40,557 nucleotides of DNA from a virus. The translations under genes were made by a program, and so were the position numbers. The stretch is taken from positions 1-40,557 of the IMG/VR virus record IMGVR_UViG_3300030943_000064. One strand, 5' to 3'. Of the stretch, positions 11,747 through 32,628 are shown in pieces (positions within the stretch are counted from its first letter, which is position 1; each line of letters opens with the position of its first letter). Under the pieces are notes generated by a model, which was given only the letters and a program-made list of their open reading frames with translations, had not been told where the DNA came from and searched no databases.

Positions 11747-13567
11747 TTATTGTGGCAACTGTTCTGGTTGCTCTTGTAATGCTTGTGCCATATCTGGTAT
11801 GGACTTCCCTATAAGATTCTGCATATCACCTACAAACCCATTTTGGTTTTGAGGTTGTACGCCCATCTGTTTAGCTTGTTGTAATATCTTAGAGTTAAGA
11901 TTCATGATGTCAAATATCTGGTCAGTGCCTTTGAAGTTAGCTCTGTTCAATATCCATTTCAATATCTCGGATGCGGTCTGTACATCCATCAACTGAGACA
12001 ATGATTGGAAAGCTGGAGTTCCAAGGAGAGAGAATAGTTTCTGTATATCAGCTTCTCTTTCAACTTGTGATTGGCTACCACCAATTATAAATGTATATCT
12101 TCCATTTCTTATCTCGTCATCAATCTTGGCAAATGCTGTAGACCCATCATTATTTGTTATCTTTATTTCTTTTTCTTCGGTCTCCATAACTCTTTTGAAT
12201 AGTGAGTGGGTCTCAACCATAGGTATAATGATTCTGTTAATGAATAGGTTAGCTTCTCTGTTAATCCTCATAGTAGCACCTTGCTGGATATAAGAGGACT
12301 CACTAGCAGTACGCACAGTACCCTCTGTTGACCCTTGGAGGTACTGGCTAATACCAGTAGAACCTTCCATTGAATCTCTAAAGAACTTTTGGAACTCGAA
12401 GTTGCTCATGCCTGATGAGAAGTCTACCTTCTGTGGAGGTTGACCACCTAGTGTTGCTGGGTCATACTCTAATGGTTTACCAGCTTCTAGTTTAGTATAG
12501 GATTGGAAAGCCCCCTTTGGTGCAATGAACACTGGATTAGTATTCAGCTCCCAAGCCTTTAAGCTTAAATCCATACACATGTTTTCTACTTCATTAATAA
12601 TATACACAGGCTTCAATGGAGATTGTCCACGTCCTGTGTCTGGTCTATCTAGGTACGAACCGTACACGATAGGGCATTTAACATATTCACTCTCTTCGAG
12701 TTGAGCTAGGTATTTACCAGCTACGACAACTATAACAACATCCTTAATTACTTTACCAGTAACTGGGTGGATGTAATCCCCTCTGTATTCTAATACTTCT
12801 ACAGTTTTCCCTAGGACTTTTCTATCTTTTGATTTCTTCTCTTCGTGTATATCAACAGTCTTTGGAGTATTTGATATTAACGATTCAAGTTCAATCCTCT
12901 CTTCTTTTGTAAACTTGTACAGCTGGTTAGTTAATACATATTGGATAGGAATAAACTCTCTAATAATCTTACCACACATATTCCAGTTGTGACGCTGTGA
13001 CTTATCAAAGTATAAGTTATGTGGGTCTATTCTTCTTATGTGGACATGTGCGTCCTCTGATTCATATACAAATGATTTTGTAGGTTCACCAGTCAACTCA
13101 TCCATTACTATGGTGGGCTTCTTAACAATATGCTCATCCCAGTGGACAAACATTGCTCCTTCACCTTTAATAGTCCAGTCGTCTAATACTGCGTCTAAAC
13201 TATTCTTTAGGTACATCTTGTTATAGTCGTATATCAACGAAGCCTTGTACGTTGCTGATAGGTTGTTACTACGTAAGTCTTGACCTTCTATATCAAACAT
13301 TCCTTCATAGCTACCGTATGTAGATTTACTTATAGCGGACGTATATGTTTTATACTGCTCGTATAAGCTAGGAATCTTTTTAACATCTTTTTTATTTCTA
13401 TTGTAATCTGGGAAGAGTTCTCTTAATAAAGCAATAGTGTCTCTTCTTGGTTGGTCTAGGTCATCATACCATTCATTAAACTTATTGTTAATATCTTCAA
13501 CTATCTCAGTTCGTTTTAGTTTTCTTAATTCTTTTTTTGAATCGCCATCATTAAGGTATATACCCAT
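11747..13567 (-). CDS. Portal protein (podovirus head-tail connector), 606 aa
   Basis: Length and order (directly after TerL) match large podovirus portals. N-terminal helices with RDTIALLRELFPDYNRN and the membrane-like 'KSTYGSYEGMFDIEG' region, then the characteristic 'VHWDEHIVKKPTIV...RIDPHNLYFDKSQ' stretch (wing/stem entry), then LDRPDTGRGQSPLKPVYIINEVENMCMDLSLKAWE, a conserved portal helix, then TASESSYIQQGATMRINREANLFINRIIIPMVE, the usual C-terminal stem and crown helices. The start ATG at 13567 overlaps the TerL stop (TAATG), so translation is coupled. It forms the dodecameric vertex for packaging and ejection. Confidence 0.88.
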   Translation of the reverse strand: MGIYLNDGDSKKELRKLKRTEIVEDINNKFNEWYDDLDQPRRDTIALLRELFPDYNRNKKDVKKIPSLYEQYKTYTSAISKSTYGSYEGMFDIEGQDLRSNNLSATYKASLIYDYNKMYLKNSLDAVLDDWTIKGEGAMFVHWDEHIVKKPTIVMDELTGEPTKSFVYESEDAHVHIRRIDPHNLYFDKSQRHNWNMCGKIIREFIPIQYVLTNQLYKFTKEERIELESLISNTPKTVDIHEEKKSKDRKVLGKTVEVLEYRGDYIHPVTGKVIKDVVIVVVAGKYLAQLEESEYVKCPIVYGSYLDRPDTGRGQSPLKPVYIINEVENMCMDLSLKAWELNTNPVFIAPKGAFQSYTKLEAGKPLEYDPATLGGQPPQKVDFSSGMSNFEFQKFFRDSMEGSTGISQYLQGSTEGTVRTASESSYIQQGATMRINREANLFINRIIIPMVETHSLFKRVMETEEKEIKITNNDGSTAFAKIDDEIRNGRYTFIIGGSQSQVEREADIQKLFSLLGTPAFQSLSQLMDVQTASEILKWILNRANFKGTDQIFDIMNLNSKILQQAKQMGVQPQNQNGFVGDMQNLIGKSIPDMAQALQEQPEQLPQ

Positions 13568-14928
13568 TAATCAACTCCATAATCATATTTACCACCGAAG
13601 ATGTCCATCATCTTACCTTTGTATTCAGTTACTGTTAAATCCTTTATAGGGTAGTATAAACATATTAAGTAACTACATGCGTCTATAGGGTGTCCTAGAT
13701 ATTTAGCTTTCTCATTAGACCTTAGCTTACCGCTTGATATTATCTTAGGTCGAGAGCCACCTTCCTCAGTCTCTAGGGTATCTATATTATATAACAACCA
13801 TTTACATTGAGGGTGGATTAATATATTGTGAGAACCGTTGCCATCTTTTATCATAGTGTTCCAACAATTGATTCTCCATCCTATATCAGGGTTCTTGTTC
13901 ATTACCCTGATGTCTATATTTATGAATCCATGCTGGGCTAGCGTGTTCTTTAGGATTATATAATCGCTACCCTTTGTTGTATCACTTCTACCAGATGCGT
14001 CTCCATTTATAATTATAGCATGGTTCTTATACTTTGTCAATAGCTCCGCAACTAATCCTGCACAAAATTCTGTAGTTGTATGTTGCTGAACAATCTCATG
14101 TAGGTAATAAACCTTGCCATCATAGTGTTGTGCGATGTACCAACACATAGGGTCTTTGTTAAAGTCACAAGTTAAATGGATAGGAAATGCTGGATTAATC
14201 TTGATAGTGTCTTGCACTTGCTCTTTGAAGCTAAATCCTTTTGTGACCAATCCTATTGTACTATCAACGTCTTCGCCCAATACATTTATTCTATAGTATT
14301 CTTCTGAATAGGATTTCTTTAATGTGTCAACGAATCCATCAGGTAGGAATGTGTTATCTGTAGTAGGGGCTATGATTCTTCTAAAGTTTTCCTCTGGTTC
14401 TTTCACAAACCTTTCATATATCCAACCTCTAGACTTCTCTGGGTTTGTGTGTCCGAATAGTCTATATCTAAAACCATCTCCCCATTCAGGGTTAGGTGCT
14501 TGTCTAAGTCTTGATAGCAACATATTAAAAGTAGACTCAGGAGTATCACTCACCTCCTCAATCTCTACGAACCCTAGGTTCAACGATTTAATCTTATCTG
14601 GTTCTTCTAAGTGACGGAATAGAATCTCACTACCATTGTATAAAGTTATTTTATTCTGAGACTTGTTATGGGTATATTTAATCCCCATCTTCTCAAAGTG
14701 TTCTAGGTACGAAACCATTGTGGTATCACGTACTAGCGATATAGTCTGCGCTCCAACCAACCCTCTAATCTTAGGATACTTTAGACAAAGCAATGTGCCT
14801 AATAAGCTACCAGAGAAAGTCTTTCCAGACCCGAAGCCACCTTGGTATAAGGCTATGTCCATCTTCTTATCATGAGGAACTTCTATGAACTTACGTTGTG
14901 CTGGTAGTAGTTGGTATTCACAACTCAT
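13567..14928 (-). CDS. terL: Terminase large subunit, 453 aa
   Basis: The ATPase domain carries a Walker A GGFGSGKT (residues 30-37) and a Walker B-type acidic strand LGFVEIEEVSD (about 118-128), with the coupling motif near FGHTNPE. The nuclease domain follows with the three RNase H-like acidic sites CDFNKDP, IINGDASGRSD and HPIDACSY. Length is normal for phage-type TerL (about 450). It pairs with TerS (15080-15463) but is separated from it by a small membrane protein gene. Packages DNA through the portal; the circular coverage of the window would agree with headful cutting, but cos or pac cannot be decided here. Confidence 0.95.
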   Translation of the reverse strand: MSCEYQLLPAQRKFIEVPHDKKMDIALYQGGFGSGKTFSGSLLGTLLCLKYPKIRGLVGAQTISLVRDTTMVSYLEHFEKMGIKYTHNKSQNKITLYNGSEILFRHLEEPDKIKSLNLGFVEIEEVSDTPESTFNMLLSRLRQAPNPEWGDGFRYRLFGHTNPEKSRGWIYERFVKEPEENFRRIIAPTTDNTFLPDGFVDTLKKSYSEEYYRINVLGEDVDSTIGLVTKGFSFKEQVQDTIKINPAFPIHLTCDFNKDPMCWYIAQHYDGKVYYLHEIVQQHTTTEFCAGLVAELLTKYKNHAIIINGDASGRSDTTKGSDYIILKNTLAQHGFINIDIRVMNKNPDIGWRINCWNTMIKDGNGSHNILIHPQCKWLLYNIDTLETEEGGSRPKIISSGKLRSNEKAKYLGHPIDACSYLICLYYPIKDLTVTEYKGKMMDIFGGKYDYGVD

Positions 14929-16948: not shown

Positions 16949-16977
16949 AGTATACCATATAGCTTATTGTTTGTCAA
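16949..16977 (-). promoter_or_regulatory. Minus-strand sigma-A type promoter
   Basis: On the minus strand TTGACA (16977-16972), 17-base spacer, TATACT (16954-16949). Perfect -35, five of six in the -10, with ATGG before the -10 (extended -10 TGG). Drives the early minus genes and perhaps the late block by read-through. Its elements are mirror images of those of the plus promoter next to it. Confidence 0.85.
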
Positions 16978-16980
16978 CCC

Positions 16981-17008
16981 TTGACATTTAAAAAATATAT
17001 GGTATAAT
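16981..17008 (+). promoter_or_regulatory. Plus-strand sigma-A type promoter
   Basis: TTGACA (16981-16986), 16-base spacer ending TATATGG, TATAAT (17003-17008). Perfect hexamers plus an extended -10 (TGGTATAAT). Expected start near 17014-17016, at the 5' end of the structured leader. The same TATGGTATAAT box recurs in the internal promoter at 26643-26670. Confidence 0.9.
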
Positions 17009-19210: not shown

Positions 19211-19528
19211 ATGACAATAAAACATACTGTAAAATATACAATCTATTTAGGATTGAACAATAAAGACACAAAGAAACAAAAATATGACGATAAAACATCG
19301 TTATCAATAGCCAGTAATATACTGCTAAACGAAGGCATAGAGTGCTTTACGGCTATTACTTGCTACGGAGTTTATAAGCATGATGATGGAGTAGTAGTAA
19401 ACGAGACTTCTCTAAAAATAGAAGTAGTTGACACATCTATAAAAGAAATACCTAACTTGCTAAAATACGCCTTTAATCAAGAGTGTGTGTTGGTAACGAA
19501 GAGTATGATTGAAATGGAGTTGGTCTAA
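19211..19528 (+). CDS. Hypothetical early protein, 105 aa
   Basis: ATG 19211 with GAAAGG upstream. Alternating strands and helices: VKYTIYLGLNNKDTKKQKYDD, a helix LSIASNILLNEG, then two strands CFTAITCYGVYKHDDGVVVNETSLKIEVVD and a final helix with VLVTKSMIEMELV. This ferredoxin-like beta-alpha-beta-beta-alpha-beta pattern recurs in small phage proteins of unknown role. It is followed by three further small genes with 0-4 base junctions. Confidence 0.65.
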   Translation: MTIKHTVKYTIYLGLNNKDTKKQKYDDKTSLSIASNILLNEGIECFTAITCYGVYKHDDGVVVNETSLKIEVVDTSIKEIPNLLKYAFNQECVLVTKSMIEMELV

Positions 19529-20249: not shown

Positions 20250-21338
20250 ATGGGCAGAGGTAAGAACCGCAGTAGAAGGCGAGAGAAGGAGCGACAGATG
20301 GGATTCTTTAACAATCAACATGGCGGTCATAAGATAGTAAACCTAAACCGCCATCCACATTGCGCTAACAATGGTAGTGCTAGTGAAACATTAGTAAAGG
20401 CTAGTGATGCGTTCAAGGATATTAGGAATATGTTTATTCCAAAAGTGCCTGAGATTAGTAGCTTAGTATTTTCTGAATTAGCTTGGGTAAAAATTAATTG
20501 CTACATCAGATTAGTAGGTAGCTACGAGGTGACTGGATTCGGCAAGATAGAAAATGGAATCATAACCGATATCAAAATAATTAAACAATCAATCAAGTCA
20601 ACCCTAGTTGATTCCACATGTGAACAACTAATGGAATTTATACGAGAGGTTGGGGGTAAAGAGATTGCCAAGTGGAGTTTAGACTGGCACTCACATGTTG
20701 AGATGGGTACTAGCCCAAGCGGTACTGATACTACCAACTGGCGAGAGCAACACGAAGCAAGGGATGGCAAGCAATTCCCAGTAATGATTATCAATAAGCG
20801 AGGTAGCGTATACTGCCATTGCTATATGGGTGATGGTGATAGCAAAGCTATTGATGTCAAATACTTGACCCCTACCTTTACGGTAGATGAACTAAGGGCC
20901 ATCTATGATGGGTGTGCTAAAGATGTTGAAGAAAAATGTACACGAACATCATACTCGTCACCAACTTATCCAAGAGCTACTAACTTTTATGGGCAAGGAT
21001 ATGATGATGGAGGTTATAACTATGCCCATGGCAAGTGCGACCCCCCAGCTAGTAACAAGATTATAATTCCCGACAGTGCAACAACTCAAAAGATTACACG
21101 CACAACGAGTGGGGTTGAAATAGCTGAGGACTTATGTTGCTTCTGCGGTGAGGAGTTGTTATCACCTACTGAAAAACAAAATACAGTATGCACATCATGC
21201 TTTGAAAAGTATAACTGCGAGGACGTATGGGTTAGTAAGTGTCCAGTCTGTGGCGACGAGATGGATGACGATGAAACTAAGAACGGTATATGTGATGGGT
21301 GTTTGGAGGAGCCATCAACTACCGAAGATAAAAAATAA
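20250..21338 (+). CDS. JAMM/MPN+ metallopeptidase (deubiquitinase-like) with C-terminal zinc ribbons, 362 aa
   Basis: A complete JAMM signature is readable: E93 in the strand SYEVTGFGKI, then H147-x-H149-x7-S157-x2-D160 (WHSHVEMGTSPSGTD). In the family these bind one zinc and cleave isopeptide or peptide bonds after a ubiquitin-like Gly. Before it is a basic N-terminal tail (1-30); the core spans about 70-215; a Tyr/Gly-rich linker (235-265) leads to two zinc-binding units: C296/C297-x-C299 with C314-x2-C317, and C331-x2-C334 with C348-x2-C351, typical of target- or Ubl-binding modules. It is followed 92 bases later by the Ubl gene and then the E1-like gene. It is in the early arm, unlike lambda-type tail JAMM proteins (gpK). 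PRTRC-A-like relationship is plausible but untested. Confidence 0.85.
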   Translation: MGRGKNRSRRREKERQMGFFNNQHGGHKIVNLNRHPHCANNGSASETLVKASDAFKDIRNMFIPKVPEISSLVFSELAWVKINCYIRLVGSYEVTGFGKIENGIITDIKIIKQSIKSTLVDSTCEQLMEFIREVGGKEIAKWSLDWHSHVEMGTSPSGTDTTNWREQHEARDGKQFPVMIINKRGSVYCHCYMGDGDSKAIDVKYLTPTFTVDELRAIYDGCAKDVEEKCTRTSYSSPTYPRATNFYGQGYDDGGYNYAHGKCDPPASNKIIIPDSATTQKITRTTSGVEIAEDLCCFCGEELLSPTEKQNTVCTSCFEKYNCEDVWVSKCPVCGDEMDDDETKNGICDGCLEEPSTTEDKK

Positions 21339-21430
21339 CTAGAGAGCTTATAGCCTATGAGACTATATAACTAGATGATAGACTAGATAAACTATCGAGC
21401 ATTACAATAACACGAAAGGGGATTAACATC

Positions 21431-21646
21431 ATGGCAAGAACAACAGCAACATTCAACGTAGAGATTAACTCTATGTCTGGAACAAGAACAGTAGCAGTAA
21501 AAGTAGGTACAACTGTATCAGCTTTCAAATCTGCAAACGCTATTCCTGCAACTTCAAAACTATTTGATGATGGCGGTGAATTAAGCAACACATCTATTCT
21601 TGTAAGCCAATCTGTAACAGTAGTTACTGCTAAGAAAAACGGCTAG
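21431..21646 (+). CDS. Ubiquitin-like (beta-grasp) protein candidate with C-terminal Gly, 71 aa
   Basis: Order of elements fits a beta-grasp fold: strand TTATFNVEIN, turn SMSGT, strand RTVAVKVG, helix TTVSAFKSANAI, strand/loop SKLFDDGGEL, short SNTSIL, last strand QSVTVVTAKKNG, ending exactly in Gly-71. This parallels ubiquitin, where the helix is followed by '..G..L.d..tL' and a final strand ending in Gly. The protein is small, has no Cys, and lies between a JAMM peptidase and an E1-like enzyme. The mature Gly end would need no trimming, so the JAMM may act in deconjugation. AAGGGG lies about 11 bases before the ATG. Fold not proven by sequence alone; it could alternatively be a sulfur-carrier type protein. 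Confidence 0.7.
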   Translation: MARTTATFNVEINSMSGTRTVAVKVGTTVSAFKSANAIPATSKLFDDGGELSNTSILVSQSVTVVTAKKNG

Positions 21647-21667
21647 TCAATAGCTGAGGTTAATTTT

Positions 21668-21703
21668 AATAGAGGGATGGGCAACTGTTCCTCTATTTTA
21701 TTT
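21668..21703 (+). terminator. Attenuator-type hairpin between the Ubl and the E1-like genes
   Basis: AATAGAGG (21668-21675) pairs with CCTCTATT (21690-21697) perfectly, followed by TTTTATTT. It should end a part of the transcripts after the Ubl gene, so the small protein is made in excess over the enzyme, the stoichiometry expected for a modifier and its E1. Confidence 0.75.
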
Positions 21704-21723
21704 AAAAAGGAAGAAGGTATTAT

Positions 21724-23400
21724 ATGACACGAAAGAAAAAAGTTGAGTCAACTTTGACACTACCATTCGGCAATCATGTTGATGGTACTCATATTGGTGG
21801 CTTTACTAAATATAAAATATTTGCATGGGATAAGCCAGTTAGCTGGAAGAACTATACTACTGGTGAGTTACAAACCCTACCCCACTTAGTTTTCTGTGGG
21901 CATAGTGGTGGTAGCATTAGGCTAGTGACCAAAGTCGTAGACCTAACAGACAAGAAGGAATATGTAATTAACAGATACCATTACCACGTAAATGTATACT
22001 CATCTATCGAGACCAATAGTGTTAGGATAGACGGCAAGGGTTATAAAATTTATTATCAAAACTTTTGTACTGGGGCTAATGGAATCCATGGGGAGCAGTT
22101 GATTAAGAACCCAGAGATTACGGCTCTTACTTGTGCTGAGATATTGAAAGAACAAAACATAGACAGCCCAGCTTACGATTCATCTAGGCGGTCAGTCCAT
22201 ATAGGATGTCTTGATAGAATTATATGTGATAAAAACGGTACGGCTATTGACCCAGCTAAGGCAAGCTACCTATCATTAATTAAAAGATGTAGCGATAAGG
22301 CTATGCTACCAAAGATATACCAAGAACTTGCATCAATACCAAAGAATAGATGGTACTACAAGCATGAGAATGAAACATCTTATCGAGTGACTAGCATCAA
22401 CCCTAAAGGTGCTAGTGGGTTGTCTAGTTACTATCCAATCATAGATAGCAACGAGGTGGCTGAGAACCTAGGCGAGTTACCTAAGCAAGAGGTTGACATT
22501 GCAATACTGGGATTAGGTAGTGCAGGTGGTAACATAATAGAACAACTCATGAGAACCACTATGGTTAGTAAGTATTTAGTATGTGACTTTGATATGGTAG
22601 AGAAAAAGAATTTACGCAACCAGCCATTTAACGCAGAACATATAGGTTATGACAAGGCATACTCAACCCACCATTTAATTATGCAGAGGTTGGCAAAGGG
22701 TGGTGACAGTTGCATCCACTTTAAATCTAAGTTCCAAGAAATACAATGGAAGCATTATACTACTAAGTATATCGTACTAGGATTTGATTCAATAGCTACT
22801 AGACTTGAAGCCTTTAAGATGGTTGCTGATGGTACAATCCAAGCTGAATATATAATTGATACAAGGTATGATGACCTTGAAGCGTCAATATATTTTGTTG
22901 ATGTTAAGGATAAAGTACAGATGGATTACTACTACCAACAGTTGCTAAGTGATGGTAACATATTGGAGTCTACTACCGCCAAGGCAGAGGAAGGAAAATT
23001 TAAACGATGGGACAAGAATACCATTGCGCCATTCGTTGGGATAGCGAGCAGGATGGGTGGCTGTGGTGGCTCTCATCATTCTGTAGGCATAGAGATGGTG
23101 AAATGTAACTGCTCCTCTCCATGTGGTAGCACTGAGTGTATAGCCCAGAGGGTTAGAATATTCAACGAGTGTAAGATTCCAAAGCATATAGTCGATGAGT
23201 TTGTAGCGAAAAGGCAAAGTTCAGCAACCCCAGTGGTTGAGACAACATGTGTTAAGTGGAACATAATAGATATATATAAGTTCGCTTCAAGCTATGTGAC
23301 CTGTACAATCAGGGAGATACAGGACAAGCGACCTAAACAATTCACCCACATTGAGGTGACAACTGATGGGCTACCTAAACAAATTGTAATGAAGAAATAG
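21724..23400 (+). CDS. E1/ThiF-like adenylating enzyme with a large N-terminal domain, 558 aa
   Basis: The C-terminal half is an E1-like Rossmann domain: DIAILGLGSAGGN (G263-L-G265-x2-G268) for ATP, then CDFDMVEKKNLRNQPFNAEHIGYDKA, the MoeB/ThiF/E1 hallmark 'D.D.Ve..NL.RQ.f....iG..Ka' with D288, D290, N296, R298, Q300 and K311. D356 in VLGFDSIATR matches the 'c.D....R' strand. Later C447, C461, C463, C467 and C472 are candidates for zinc and for the thioester Cys. The first 250 residues form a separate domain I do not recognise; PRTRC ThiF proteins are much shorter, so this fusion is unusual. It should adenylate the C-terminal Gly of the neighbouring Ubl and may pass it on as a thioester. AAGGAAGAAGG precedes the ATG. 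Confidence 0.88.
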   Translation: MTRKKKVESTLTLPFGNHVDGTHIGGFTKYKIFAWDKPVSWKNYTTGELQTLPHLVFCGHSGGSIRLVTKVVDLTDKKEYVINRYHYHVNVYSSIETNSVRIDGKGYKIYYQNFCTGANGIHGEQLIKNPEITALTCAEILKEQNIDSPAYDSSRRSVHIGCLDRIICDKNGTAIDPAKASYLSLIKRCSDKAMLPKIYQELASIPKNRWYYKHENETSYRVTSINPKGASGLSSYYPIIDSNEVAENLGELPKQEVDIAILGLGSAGGNIIEQLMRTTMVSKYLVCDFDMVEKKNLRNQPFNAEHIGYDKAYSTHHLIMQRLAKGGDSCIHFKSKFQEIQWKHYTTKYIVLGFDSIATRLEAFKMVADGTIQAEYIIDTRYDDLEASIYFVDVKDKVQMDYYYQQLLSDGNILESTTAKAEEGKFKRWDKNTIAPFVGIASRMGGCGGSHHSVGIEMVKCNCSSPCGSTECIAQRVRIFNECKIPKHIVDEFVAKRQSSATPVVETTCVKWNIIDIYKFASSYVTCTIREIQDKRPKQFTHIEVTTDGLPKQIVMKK

Positions 23401-24034: not shown

Positions 24035-24421
24035 ATGGGACTATTTAAAAAAAGCCAAGAGGAAATCTTGGAGGGTAGGATAAGAAAGTTGATGGGTAAT
24101 CAACCATATAAAAAAGAAATCGAATCAGACCCAGATAAATTTGTGGTAGCTGTAATGGAGCAGGACATATCAGTGGCGTTGATAGTAGATAAACACGCTA
24201 CAACTCCTGATGAATTTGCTAAGGCTGGTAAGATGTTATCAGAAAAGTTTAGCGAAGAGGTAAGCAATAAGGTAATGGAATTATATGTAGACTTCTGTGA
24301 GAAGTATGGGGTTACACCATTTAAGGTCAACACCAAGGCATGTACCCAACCGTTTACTGGCTACTACTCCAAGCTATCTATGGAGAAAATGATGGGAGGA
24401 ATACTAGATGGAAAAGGATAA
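24035..24421 (+). CDS. Hypothetical protein, 128 aa
   Basis: An all-alpha, charged protein (MGLFKKSQEEILEGRIRKLMGN...), with two cysteines far apart and no motif. It starts 4 bases after the previous stop and overlaps the AAA+ gene by 14 bases, implying coupled synthesis with the ATPase; it may be an adaptor. No homologous family recognised. Confidence 0.6.
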   Translation: MGLFKKSQEEILEGRIRKLMGNQPYKKEIESDPDKFVVAVMEQDISVALIVDKHATTPDEFAKAGKMLSEKFSEEVSNKVMELYVDFCEKYGVTPFKVNTKACTQPFTGYYSKLSMEKMMGGILDGKG

Positions 24422-25535
24422 GCTATTAGATGGGTTACTTGATGTAGCCTTACAAGAACTTAATAAGAAAGTTGATGAAAGAGTTGACAAACTCCAAGCT
24501 TCAATCGAAGCAAAGGTTGAAGGGGTTGAGGTAGGATTAAGGGAGCGTATAGCTACGCTCGATAGTTATACTACCCAAGCACCATTGGTTGTCAACATAG
24601 GTAAGGTAGGCAAACCAAAGAGCAAGGTTGTCCACTCGTCACTCGATTTGATTATGAGGATTCTTAAATCAACTAAGCGTAAAGAGAAGAACATCATGCT
24701 TGTAGGTGGTGCTGGTAGTGGTAAGACACACCTAGTATCGACGATAGCAGAAGCCCTCGATAGGCAGTTCTACCCCATGAGTGTAGGGTTACAGACAACT
24801 AAGTCAGACTTACTAGGGTTTATAAATGCGACTGGGAATTATATTACTACCCCATTACGCAAGGCGTATGAAGAGGGTGGGGTATTACTACTAGATGAAT
24901 TTGATTCAGCCCATGCTGGTGTTGTTACTATACTTAACTCGTTACTAGCTAATGGGCATTGCTCATTTCCCGATAAGATAATTACAAAACATCAAGACTT
25001 TATTTGCCTATGTGCATGTAATACTTATGGTAAAGGTGGGAGTATAGATTACGTTGGACGTAATAGGCTAGACGGTGCAACACTTGATAGATTTATAATG
25101 GTAAACGTAGGGTATGATACTCAACTCGAAAGAGCGTTGACTAACCATAAGCCTTGGGAAGATGTTATATATAAGATAAGGGAGAACATTGCCTCTCATG
25201 GAATCAAGATGATAGTATCACCAAGAGCATTGATGGATGGGGCTGACCTACTTGATGAAGGTATATGTCTTACTGATGTATTAGATATGGTTATCTTTAA
25301 GGGATGTGATGATGATATAATTGCAAAGCTTATGGATGGCGTAGACCTAGAGGATTTTAAATCTATCCCACCTAAGTTTTTAAGTAAGCTAACTGGTACT
25401 ACTCATGAGCATAAATCCAAGGAGGAATCTGGCTCATCGCCAACACCCTCAGTTTCTGTTTATGGAAGGACAGGAGGAAGTAAGTCTAAGCCTTGGTACA
25501 ATATTACACCACCACCCTACCCAGAAATGTTTTAA
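24408..25535 (+). CDS. MoxR-type AAA+ ATPase, 375 aa
   Basis: A coiled-coil N-terminus (LQELNKKVDERVDKLQASIEAKVEGVEVGLRERI, about 16-48) leads to the AAA+ core: Walker A GGAGSGKT (100-107), Walker B VLLLDEFD (159-166), sensor-1 Asn in CACNTYG (N205), and the arginine-finger region ATLDRF (R228). The run 'LLDEFDSAHAGVVTILNSLLANG' and 'LDRFIMVNVGYD' is typical of the MoxR/CbbQ/NorQ clade. Such ATPases act with VWA proteins as chaperones that remodel a target; the gene two places downstream is a VWA-like candidate. The C-terminus has a Ser/Pro/Gly tail. Confidence 0.88.
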   Translation: MEKDKLLDGLLDVALQELNKKVDERVDKLQASIEAKVEGVEVGLRERIATLDSYTTQAPLVVNIGKVGKPKSKVVHSSLDLIMRILKSTKRKEKNIMLVGGAGSGKTHLVSTIAEALDRQFYPMSVGLQTTKSDLLGFINATGNYITTPLRKAYEEGGVLLLDEFDSAHAGVVTILNSLLANGHCSFPDKIITKHQDFICLCACNTYGKGGSIDYVGRNRLDGATLDRFIMVNVGYDTQLERALTNHKPWEDVIYKIRENIASHGIKMIVSPRALMDGADLLDEGICLTDVLDMVIFKGCDDDIIAKLMDGVDLEDFKSIPPKFLSKLTGTTHEHKSKEESGSSPTPSVSVYGRTGGSKSKPWYNITPPPYPEMF

Positions 25536-25839
25536 AGCAACGGTAGAGTTTAACTATAAGACAGAGCAGTACAGTTATTATAGTAGGTGCAAGTCAAAAC
25601 AAATATTTGAAGATGGTCTAAGACTTGGTGATGGATGGAGTCCACATATTGGTGGAGATATATTCATGCCAACTAGTGACACACACTTTGACTATAAATC
25701 ATCAGTAGGCTATGAGAAGGCGATAGTGCTACTTAAAAGTTTAAAGAATACTTACAGAAGTGATGGGTCTTTTAGGATTAAAGTATTACTTGTGGCACCA
25801 GAAGGTCACAGTTCTGTATACGTACTAGGAGGTGGATAA
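25462..25839 (+). CDS. Hypothetical protein between the AAA+ and VWA-like genes, about 125 aa
   Basis: The frame is open from 25405 and has ATGs at 25405 and 25462; neither has a clear ribosome site. I give the second as start, overlapping the AAA+ gene by 74 bases. The body (ATVEFNYKTEQYSYYSRCKSKQIFEDGLRLGDG ... KVLLVAPEGHSSVYVLGGG) is beta-rich with one helix. The stop overlaps the next start (TAATG). No family recognised. Likely part of the ATPase-VWA set. Confidence 0.5.
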   Translation: MEGQEEVSLSLGTILHHHPTQKCFKATVEFNYKTEQYSYYSRCKSKQIFEDGLRLGDGWSPHIGGDIFMPTSDTHFDYKSSVGYEKAIVLLKSLKNTYRSDGSFRIKVLLVAPEGHSSVYVLGGG

Positions 25840-26669
25840 TGAGTAGACTATTTACTCACAATGGTTGCAAGGCTATAGAGTTCAATGGCATGGTTGACCA
25901 TGTAGAATTTCTAGAAAGTAATAATGGTAGCCGTCACCACCACCTGAAAGCTATGGCTAGAGAAGGAGATTTCTTTGGTTGCGATAACTATGAAGAGTTA
26001 ATAACTAAGATGAAATATGGTGATAGTAAGGCAACAGCCTCCCTGTTAGATAAACTTAAATCATCCCAAGTCTATAGCGATATAGACAATGGGGTTAAGA
26101 TGGATATAGATGGGTTCGCTTATGACATGGGAAGTGTGGTAAGTGGTGAGCCTGAGTGTTGCCTATCTAGTGGTAGCCCACAAGCCAAGCCTTATATAAA
26201 AATATTTGTAGACCAAGGATATAGTGGGCATACAGATGTAGATGTTATAAACAATAGAAGTGTGGGGATTGTTAACCTCGTCACATCATTACAGACAATG
26301 GGATATGTTGTTGAGTTAGTAGTAGGCAACTACGAAAGAGGGACAAAGATATATGGGTTCACTAAGTTATCAACTGATAGCCTATGTGTTAGTCAAATAG
26401 CAGTAGCTACATCGCCATACTACTGGAGGTGTGGTAGCTGGATGACCACTATGATGTTGGGCAAGACTACTGATACTGGTCACAGCCTGATGGACTATAG
26501 TGACATAGAAGCTATGGAAAAAGAGGGATGGTTCTATATAGGTGGAGGTTATACCGATAGCAAGATGAATAGTTTATCTACTGGGGATGATGGTACTGAA
26601 TATATAACAGAACTATTCAATAAATATTGTTCAACTAGGGGGTTGAAAAAAGAAATTTGTATGGTATAA
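25839..26669 (+). CDS. VWA-like protein paired with the MoxR ATPase, 276 aa
   Basis: The segment FAYDMGSVVSGEPECCLSS (93-111) followed by IKIFVDQGYSGHTDVDVINNRSVGIVNLVTSLQTMGYVVELVVGNYERG (120-168) matches the 'D.G....GeP.cm ... ..i.v......s......i..rg.ai..lv..Le..Gy.Vel.v' pattern of a phage protein group often seen beside AAA+ genes (DUF7192-like). The strand-helix-strand alternation resembles a VWA Rossmann fold, with DQGYS in the place of the DxSxS metal site, i.e. degenerate. It would be the substrate adaptor of the ATPase. The gene end contains an internal promoter. Confidence 0.65.
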   Translation: MSRLFTHNGCKAIEFNGMVDHVEFLESNNGSRHHHLKAMAREGDFFGCDNYEELITKMKYGDSKATASLLDKLKSSQVYSDIDNGVKMDIDGFAYDMGSVVSGEPECCLSSGSPQAKPYIKIFVDQGYSGHTDVDVINNRSVGIVNLVTSLQTMGYVVELVVGNYERGTKIYGFTKLSTDSLCVSQIAVATSPYYWRCGSWMTTMMLGKTTDTGHSLMDYSDIEAMEKEGWFYIGGGYTDSKMNSLSTGDDGTEYITELFNKYCSTRGLKKEICMV

Positions 26670-31856: not shown

Positions 31857-32038
31857 GAATACATAGAGTAAATGATATAAACTACCCAAGGCGTAAGCCT
31901 ACCCCTATGCCTCCATTTAGAGGAGGTATTGGTTATATACCAGTACTACCTATGGCTATGGGTATGGCTGGCGGTGCATTGGCAACATGTTTAATTATAG
32001 AGTATCTATTAAGGTTAGCAAGAAGGGCAGGACAATGA
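31853..32038 (+). CDS. Small membrane protein, 61 aa
   Basis: Overlaps the helicase stop (ATGA) and the next start (ATGA). A basic, Pro-rich N-terminus (NYPRRKPTPMPPFRGG) is followed by a Gly/Ala/Met-rich hydrophobic helix (YIPVLPMAMGMAGGALATCLIIEYLLRL). Single-pass membrane protein of unknown role. Confidence 0.55.
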   Translation: MRIHRVNDINYPRRKPTPMPPFRGGIGYIPVLPMAMGMAGGALATCLIIEYLLRLARRAGQ

Positions 32039-32628
32039 TATACAGTATCTACGGTTATGGCAAGATGAAAACAGAAGCATCTATCGGCTGTGCTATAAGG
32101 GCATTAGGCAATGGCGAGAGTGTATTGTTTGTTCAGTTCTTAAAAGACGGTACTTCAACTGAGGTAGACTACTTTAAAGGTAAGAATAATATATTAGTAA
32201 TGAATGGGGATGTAGATAAGATTACACTACCAAGTAACTTAACAACTGTAGATAAGTTCAAGGCTCAGAGTCTTTATAACCAAGTAGATGAGAAGTTAAA
32301 GGATGACTATGGTCTAGTTATACTAGATGAAATACTTCCTGCTGTTGATATGGGATTGATTACTATAGAGCAGATTGAATATCTAATATCTAAGTGTGAC
32401 AAGATGTGCATTGACTTGTTTATGACAGGCAGAGTTAGACAGAAGTCTCTACGCTTAAAGATAGCAGAACTTAGTGATGTATGTACTGACGCTCATTGTG
32501 TTAAGCATAATCATAATTCACATTGTGAGAAGTGTGGGAAGGATTATCCCTATCACTATACTTATTGCTGTGACTGTGGCGCACAATTAGTTGAAAGCAA
32601 GGAGGCTAAACTTGGTCGTGACTTTTAA
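32035..32628 (+). CDS. CobA/BtuR-type corrinoid adenosyltransferase homologue with C-terminal zinc ribbon, 197 aa
   Basis: ATG 32035 (MIYSIYGYGKMKTEAS) overlaps the previous stop and has GAAGGGCAGG upstream; the frame opens earlier at 31987 but that is inside the membrane gene. The fold signature of the ATP:cob(I)alamin adenosyltransferase family is clear: P-loop G7-x-G9-K10-x-K12-T13, 'AIRALGNGESVLFVQFLKDG', Walker B LVILDEILPAVDMGLI (94-109), FMTGR (129-133). The P-loop is shortened (GYGKMKTE for GDGKGKTT), and the usual 'T.......KH' end is replaced by a zinc ribbon C164-x2-C167 ... C178-x2-C181. Could be a cobalamin enzyme or a recruited nucleotide-binding protein. Confidence 0.75.
   Translation: MIYSIYGYGKMKTEASIGCAIRALGNGESVLFVQFLKDGTSTEVDYFKGKNNILVMNGDVDKITLPSNLTTVDKFKAQSLYNQVDEKLKDDYGLVILDEILPAVDMGLITIEQIEYLISKCDKMCIDLFMTGRVRQKSLRLKIAELSDVCTDAHCVKHNHNSHCEKCGKDYPYHYTYCCDCGAQLVESKEAKLGRDF

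Follow-up and report, generated by a model that had tools for sequence, protein, structure and literature searches.

Bacterial gene sets that combine a ubiquitin-like protein (Ubl), an E1 enzyme and a JAB peptidase were found through genome comparison. The relevant sections of Iyer 2006 (PMC1779556) give operons in which E2-E1 fusions lie beside JAB genes (types 6a-6c), and a type 6d made up of a small Ubl, a JAB, an E1, an E2-like protein and a helical protein; the phage Ubl/JAB sets in those sections are lambda/T1 tail modules without an E1. Cap2 and Cap3 conjugate and deconjugate proteins (PMC10097602), and in the Bil system BilA carries a pair of Ubl domains, with a separate CEHH E2, BilB (PMC11354881). 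Here we describe a triad of genes for a JAMM peptidase, a Ubl and an E1-like protein in IMG/VR virus record IMGVR_UViG_3300030943_000064 (positions 1-40,557; this whole 40,557-base stretch is called the window), which is a podovirus-like phage by its terminase and portal matches. We read the triad, from its sequence, as a compact, phage-encoded and reversible Ubl conjugation system, with a probability of roughly 0.62. We found no phage set of E1, Ubl and JAMM in the open-access literature, preprints and subscription journals being outside the scope of that search.

The smallest gene of the triad encodes a 71-residue protein that matched nothing in any family library searched. Its AlphaFold2 model, built with five homologs as input, has a predicted local distance difference test (pLDDT) score of 77.9 and the order strand-strand-helix-strand-strand-strand. 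When this model was searched against the PDB with Foldseek, the neighbours were almost all ubiquitin, NEDD8 or other Ubls, and MoaD-like proteins (probability 1.00, template modelling scores 0.6-0.79), with modest E-values (best 1.1e-3), as is expected at 71 residues. The best matches in the viral structure library BFVD include giant-virus and baculovirus ubiquitins. The original prediction had called this protein beta-grasp-like and had named any other topology in advance as speaking against a Ubl; the predicted topology is a beta-grasp, and the ubiquitin-family matches agree with it.

Across the window and five other phages that carry the triad, G26, L51, K68, N70 and G71 of the Ubl are invariant and the protein ends in K[KR]NG-stop. 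It thus has the C-terminal glycine of a conjugable Ubl, and not the Gly-Gly end of the ThiS/MoaD sulfur carriers (NG in 6/6 phages). Because the gene ends at this glycine, the Ubl needs no JAMM to mature, and deconjugation is the likelier role of this enzyme. One relative has a fusion protein in which an IF-2 N-terminal domain precedes the Ubl (L017:7214-7708; Pfam IF2_N 34.8 bits, above the cut-off), so the tag in that phage would bear a translation-factor domain.

The first gene of the triad encodes the JAMM protein, which matches PADLOC JAB (E=2.7e-6) and, under the curated cut-off, Pfam Prok-JAB (E=9.5e-4). The E...HxHx7Sx2D feature of JAMM/MPN+ enzymes is present in full, every residue of it where the original prediction had placed it, and E93, D145-W-H-S-H149 and S157-G-T-D160 are invariant in the six-phage alignment. 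The two C-terminal zinc units predicted alongside these residues also exist as Cys-rich units; the first (residues 296-317) occurs in most relatives and the second (residues 331-351) in the window only. In record G011, apparent in-frame TGA stops fall 5' of the JAMM start codon, so the gene is intact. A separate observation concerns a Bacillota plasmid JAMM (L006:3980-4933), in which an N-terminal segment ends in AKKKG before the JAMM domain; it is possibly a self-cleaving Ubl-JAMM fusion.

The E1-like protein has its adenylating domain at residues ~253-390, according to library matches: Pfam ThiF (E=7.3e-6, below cut-off), the NCBIfam ThiF model PRK08644 (ThiS adenylyltransferase, 3.3e-9, the best NCBIfam match) and PADLOC E1-E2 (6e-8). 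Against the PDB, the family profile matched UBA3 and UBA5, the NEDD8 and UFM1 E1s, at about 2e-6, as well as MccB and Cap2, and for the window protein alone Cap2 was the best sequence match (0.0015). All the elements that define the E1/ThiF/MoeB group (GxGxxG, D, N-R-Q, K and the catalytic Asp) are present. The earlier reading had listed GLGSAG, D288/D290, N296-R298-Q300 and K311, all of which are there, and had left out D355-x4-R360, which is there too. Invariant in the six phages are G263, G265, S266-G268, D288, D290, E293, K295-N-L-R-N-Q300, K311, D355 and R360. With the JAMM E/H/H/S/D, the E1 ATP-site residues and Asp355 all invariant, the JAMM and the E1 are kept under selection as active enzymes.

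Four invariant Cys of the E1 come into question as its thioester Cys. C509, which precedes the last helix, is the candidate we put forward, by analogy with MoeB/ThiF and PRTRC E1s, and C447 with C467/C472 may form a structural zinc site. We rejected C461, which one alignment (A1) set against the PRTRC catalytic Cys, since the region is gapped there and C509 is the better candidate in the six-phage alignment. No usable alignment came from a restricted hhalign comparison of the E1 C-terminal halves with PRTRC E1s.

In front of the adenylating domain lies an N-domain of ~250 residues, in which H88, N90, C115 and N119 are invariant in six phages. The original prediction had suggested that this domain might replace a missing E2; the invariant H88-x-N90 and C115 make the idea plausible, and the E2 library and profile comparisons, given below, lent it no significant match. 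When the window and four relatives were searched with PF14460, no separate Prok-E2_D/PRTRC-B gene came up. E2-E1 fusions beside JAB genes are established in bacteria, in the operons that the relevant sections of Iyer 2006 describe (PMC1779556), and we count this in favour of a conjugation system. We put the E2-likeness of the N-domain at slightly better than even, and this assignment is the weakest link of the proposed mechanism.

The mechanism would run as follows. The E1 domain would bind ATP and adenylate Gly71 of the Ubl, which would then be taken onto an E1 Cys (C509 is proposed) as a thioester. The fused N-domain, with H88-x-N90 and C115, would probably serve as a built-in E2-like unit that moves the Ubl onto target proteins, at lysines or other amines, and the JAMM would cleave the isopeptide bond and recycle the Ubl.

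Several points weigh against this mechanism. E2 family hidden Markov models (HMMs) gave no significant match to the N-domain. With hhalign, C115 falls on the Cys of Prok-E2_D, but the alignment is not significant (4/60 column shuffles reached its score), and neither HMMs, hhalign nor shuffles gave significant support for a Prok-E2_D identity of the domain. Its AlphaFold2 model (pLDDT 35) is unusable, being too poor for a structure search. The spacing from N90 to C115 is longer than in classical E2s, the Ubl ends in NG and not GG, the catalytic Cys is a guess among the four invariant ones, and no E3-like factor was identified. Regarding the spacing, a comparably long stretch from N to C is found in L016, a protein that occupies the E2_D position on a Rubrobacter plasmid ('NVYSAFTFNIDG...VC' against 'NVYSSIETNSVRIDGKG...FC').

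The conservation of the triad was established with profile scans of IMG/VR, which reached at least five further phages, making at least six with the window; the true spread is probably larger. Single-sequence queries with the E1 and JAMM, whether from the window or from its relatives, returned nothing from IMG/VR or from 50,697 GenBank phages, where the sole similarity was a marginal ThiF-type match in a gut fragment bearing a PRTRC-like set. Adding ThiF proteins of Bacillota plasmids to the profile led to IMGVR 3300047552_000782, and iteration led to 3300031994_000762, 3300012973_000128, 3300031993_000650 and 3300028797_000027. All five contain an intact JAMM-Ubl-E1 set in identical order at roughly 28-40% identity, and the E1 matches cover almost the full length.

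These phages differ in how closely they are related to that of the window. 3300012973_000128 is truly related to the window phage, with the terminase at 62%, the portal at 52% and replication genes in common; 3300028797_000027 is a more distant relative, which has the terminase (45%), portal, helicase and amidase in common. The latter is probably a complete genome because its ends overlap exactly by 127 bases, its E1 gene spanning the contig ends. With 3300047552_000782, the triad is the only block that the window has in common below E=1e-5, and the same holds for 3300031994_000762 within the stretch of record compared. The triad thus acts as one unit in differing phage backgrounds, which makes it a unit of selection, and its recurrence in the same order in six diverged phages disfavours chance. 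The three open reading frames are consecutive on the plus strand, as originally described, and the expectation that related phages would keep them together holds in 6/6 phages covering the region. Three terminase relatives (L002-L004) are short fragments that do not extend to it. The only GTDB match, a Streptococcus ThiF-like protein, was rejected: it adjoins a transporter and is unrelated to the triad. In 3/6 phages, a ParB/DGQHR-like protein that recalls the PRTRC ParB lies near the triad (L029:7829-8539, L019:7279-7983 and L030:2222-2929; ParB_N up to 0.0023, sub-threshold).

The gap between the Ubl and E1 genes, each of which has its own purine-rich ribosome site, contains a terminator-like hairpin. 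A hairpin and T-run are also found in this gap in 4/4 relatives examined (5 phages with the window), and the whole-gap fold has a z of -2.9 to -6.6 in three of these four. The gap of 3300012973_000128 is unexceptional (z -0.7), with a CTAGGG-loop-CCCTAG hairpin and T-run still visible. Partial termination here would yield Ubl in excess of E1, which fits what one expects of a tag and its catalyst.

Table 1. Features of the triad and of the phage that carries it, with positions in the window.
Feature	Position	Strand	Basis
JAMM/MPN+ metallopeptidase gene, 362 residues, candidate Ubl isopeptidase	20250..21338	+	Prok-JAB, PADLOC JAB, motif
JAMM core HSH...PSGTD (H147-x-H149-x7-S157-x2-D160)	20688..20729	+	sequence; invariant in six phages
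Pair of Cys-rich, zinc-finger-like units at the C-terminus of the JAMM protein (residues 296-317; residues 331-351)	21135..21302	+	sequence
Ubl gene, 71 residues, predicted beta-grasp fold, C-terminus KKNG-stop, Gly end already mature, without precursor tail	21431..21646	+	AlphaFold2, Foldseek, six-phage alignment
Intrinsic-terminator-like hairpin in Ubl-E1 gap, 13 bp stem then TTATTT	21668..21697	+	fold z=-5.2
E1-like gene, 558 residues: ~250-residue N-domain, ThiF/E1 adenylation domain, Cys-rich C-terminal part	21724..23400	+	library matches; homologs
H88-x-N90 ... C115 ... N119 motif, candidate E2-like active site	21985..22080	+	invariant in six
E1 adenylation core: GLGSAG, D288/D290, KNLRNQ, K311, GFD355-x4-R360	22510..22803	+	sequence; invariant in six
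Candidate structural zinc site formed by the other invariant Cys, C447 and C467/C472	23059..23139	+	six-phage alignment
TTC509VK: invariant Cys before last helix, candidate catalytic (thioester) Cys of E1	23242..23256	+	invariant in six
Podovirus-type portal	11747-13567	minus-strand arm	phrog_332 3e-19
Terminase	13567-14928	minus-strand arm	phrog_2 6e-39

The genome has two arms. On the minus strand, tail-fibre matches follow beyond the terminase and portal, and on the plus strand there are a DnaB helicase, RusA, an exonuclease and a T7-lysozyme-like gene; the GC skew changes sign near 18 kb. Where the arms join (16949-17008), two near-perfect sigma-70 promoters stand back-to-back, with TTGACA-16-TATAAT on the plus strand. 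The triad lies in the plus arm, 3' of this promoter pair, 5' of the replication genes and far from the tail genes, so the library matches of the flanking genes confirm the early, replication-side setting first proposed from the sequence. Given this location, the most likely use of the triad would be the tagging of host or phage proteins in takeover or genome replication. The fuller reading, in which a phage family has a complete reversible pathway (Ubl, divergent single-chain E2-E1, JAMM) that tags host or replication proteins early in infection, is a tentative one, which we place a little short of even.

The neighbourhood holds other genes worth recording. S-adenosylmethionine (SAM) lyases are a T3-type anti-restriction enzyme family, and a SAM lyase-like gene (19211-19528, 105 residues; Pfam 28.4 bits, cut-off 28; phrog_2226 9.7e-8) lies 0.7 kb upstream of the triad. 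Downstream, a CobS/MoxR-like AAA ATPase (24408-25535, phrog_249 3.5e-56) is followed by a DUF7192 protein (25839-26669). This pair also occurs in an unrelated phage (L005; 59% and 33%), in which the triad is absent. Further along, at 31987-32628, is a member of the ATP:corrinoid adenosyltransferase family (CobA/CobO/BtuR, 93 bits), so the same phage encodes both this enzyme and a CobS-like ATPase.

Among other explanations, we first consider descent. PRTRC stands for a ParB-related, ThiF-related cassette, and NCBI's PRTRC is apparently the type 6d set. The triad could be a divergent cassette of this kind, probably modifying DNA-maintenance proteins, which is compatible with a conjugation system and differs from our reading in descent and target. 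Bacillota plasmids, as well as phage records of 103 kb and 318 kb, have PRTRC-like sets (Ubl ending in KKG or GSKG, E2_D, JAMM, E1) beside dnaN or Rad52, the window triad likewise precedes replication genes, and three relatives have the ParB/DGQHR-like gene nearby. However, no PRTRC model, of the kind the original prediction had proposed to search, reached its cut-off: PRTRC_ThiF (TIGR03736) gave the window E1 19.5 bits against a cut-off of 144.75, and PRTRC_A JAB (TIGR03735) did not match the window JAMM. Since these models were missed by a wide margin and there is no separate E2 gene (PRTRC-B), we do not file the cassette as PRTRC, and we regard such descent as rather unlikely. The two phage sets (L021:6878-10819 and L018:5643-8681; Ubl, E2-like, JAMM and ThiF within 318-kb and 103-kb records) do match PRTRC models: PRTRC_A at 8.1e-12 (318-kb phage JAMM), PRTRC_B at 3e-7 and PRTRC_ThiF at 1e-21. 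PRTRC-like sets are also found on Rubrobacter plasmids.

Sulfur-carrier or small-molecule chemistry is unlikely. The Mec+ enzyme releases its product from CysO-cysteine, and by the same logic the Ubl would be a ThiS/MoaD/CysO-like carrier, the ThiF-like enzyme would convert it to an aminoacyl-type adduct or a thiocarboxylate, and freeing the product would fall to the JAMM. The ThiS adenylyltransferase match of the E1, MccB among the PDB matches of its profile, and the ThiS-like model that is nearest in Pfam to one relative's Ubl (0.13) all point this way, as do the JAB+ThiS+E1 sulfur-assimilation sets in the table of Iyer 2006 (PMC1779556). Yet the Ubl ends in NG, the six phages have no rhodanese domain, sulfurtransferase or biosynthetic partner gene seen in common, and ThiF/MoeB enzymes need no large conserved N-domain with an invariant Cys.

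About as improbable is superinfection exclusion or defence, i.e., a Ubl tag used against competing phages. In Bil the tag goes onto virion parts, and in CBASS Cap2 primes cGAS; the PADLOC E1-E2 and JAB models match the triad. Among characterised Ubl/E1/JAB systems, those closest to it act against phages (PMC10097602). However, no nucleotidyltransferase, effector or Bil-type tandem Ubl adjoins the triad, and its site 5' of the replication genes is the same in the window and its closest relative, which fits a core early gene set better than a slot for interchangeable accessory genes. Slightly less likely again is counter-defence, in which a host defence built on Ubls (Bil, Bub or CBASS) would be opposed by the Ubl as decoy and the JAMM as deconjugase. 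JAMM is the deconjugating class for all three, and the SAM lyase-like gene upstream is of an anti-restriction type, but a decoy and deconjugase would need no E1 of their own, let alone one that six phages conserve with its ATP site intact. Finally, tail assembly of the lambda/T1 TAPI/TAPK type is refuted by genome context: phage Ubl and JAB proteins in the sections of Iyer 2006 on such sets (PMC1779556) do belong to tail modules, but those modules have a tail location and an NlpC/P60 domain and lack an E1, whereas the triad, as the original prediction had also argued, is on the arm opposite the portal, terminase and tail genes, without NlpC/P60 and with an E1.

If the triad is a reversible conjugation system, it suggests that protein tagging by chemical means is part of infection in some phages. 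Several bacterial Ubl/E1/JAB sets are anti-phage, so an intact set in otherwise unrelated phages may reverse the question, towards a use by the phage itself. The three genes come to about 3.1 kb, small enough for activation, conjugation and deconjugation to be reconstituted in vitro or in E. coli, and C-terminal remnant proteomics could reveal the targets directly. The triad would also be a compact, divergent model for E2 and E1 functions joined in one chain.

Compared with known systems, the triad resembles several in part. Like Bil (BilA-D) and Bub, which are anti-phage Ubl conjugation systems of bacteria, it has a full set of Ubl, E1 and candidate JAMM deconjugase, but it is not a Bil system, having a single 71-residue Ubl and no separate E2 gene and being phage-borne. 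It shares with the 6A operons (E2-E1-JAB fusion plus MBL) the proposed E2-E1 order and weak NCBIfam matches (9e-5 for the E1), but it encodes its JAMM separately, includes a Ubl and has no MBL gene. As in CBASS type II (Cap2/Cap3), the proposed transfer domain is N-terminal to the E1 in one chain and the JAMM is separate; however, the window has a dedicated Ubl where CBASS has cGAS, no CD-NTase or effector is among the flanking-gene matches, the Cap3 model scores 14.7 of 200 bits, and the N-domain is not homologous by HMM. From PRTRC the window differs in its order (JAMM-Ubl-E1), its long E1 N-domain and its lack of a separate E2_D/PRTRC-B gene or other PRTRC genes. With no PRTRC model at cut-off, the relationship of the triad nevertheless appears to be to the PRTRC-type cassettes of plasmids and large phages, with which it shares a small single-domain Ubl ending in a single Gly after basic residues (KKG, TKG and SKG in PRTRC-like sets; KKNG in the window), a JAMM with an N-terminal extension, a ThiF-type E1, and carriage on a mobile element near replication genes.

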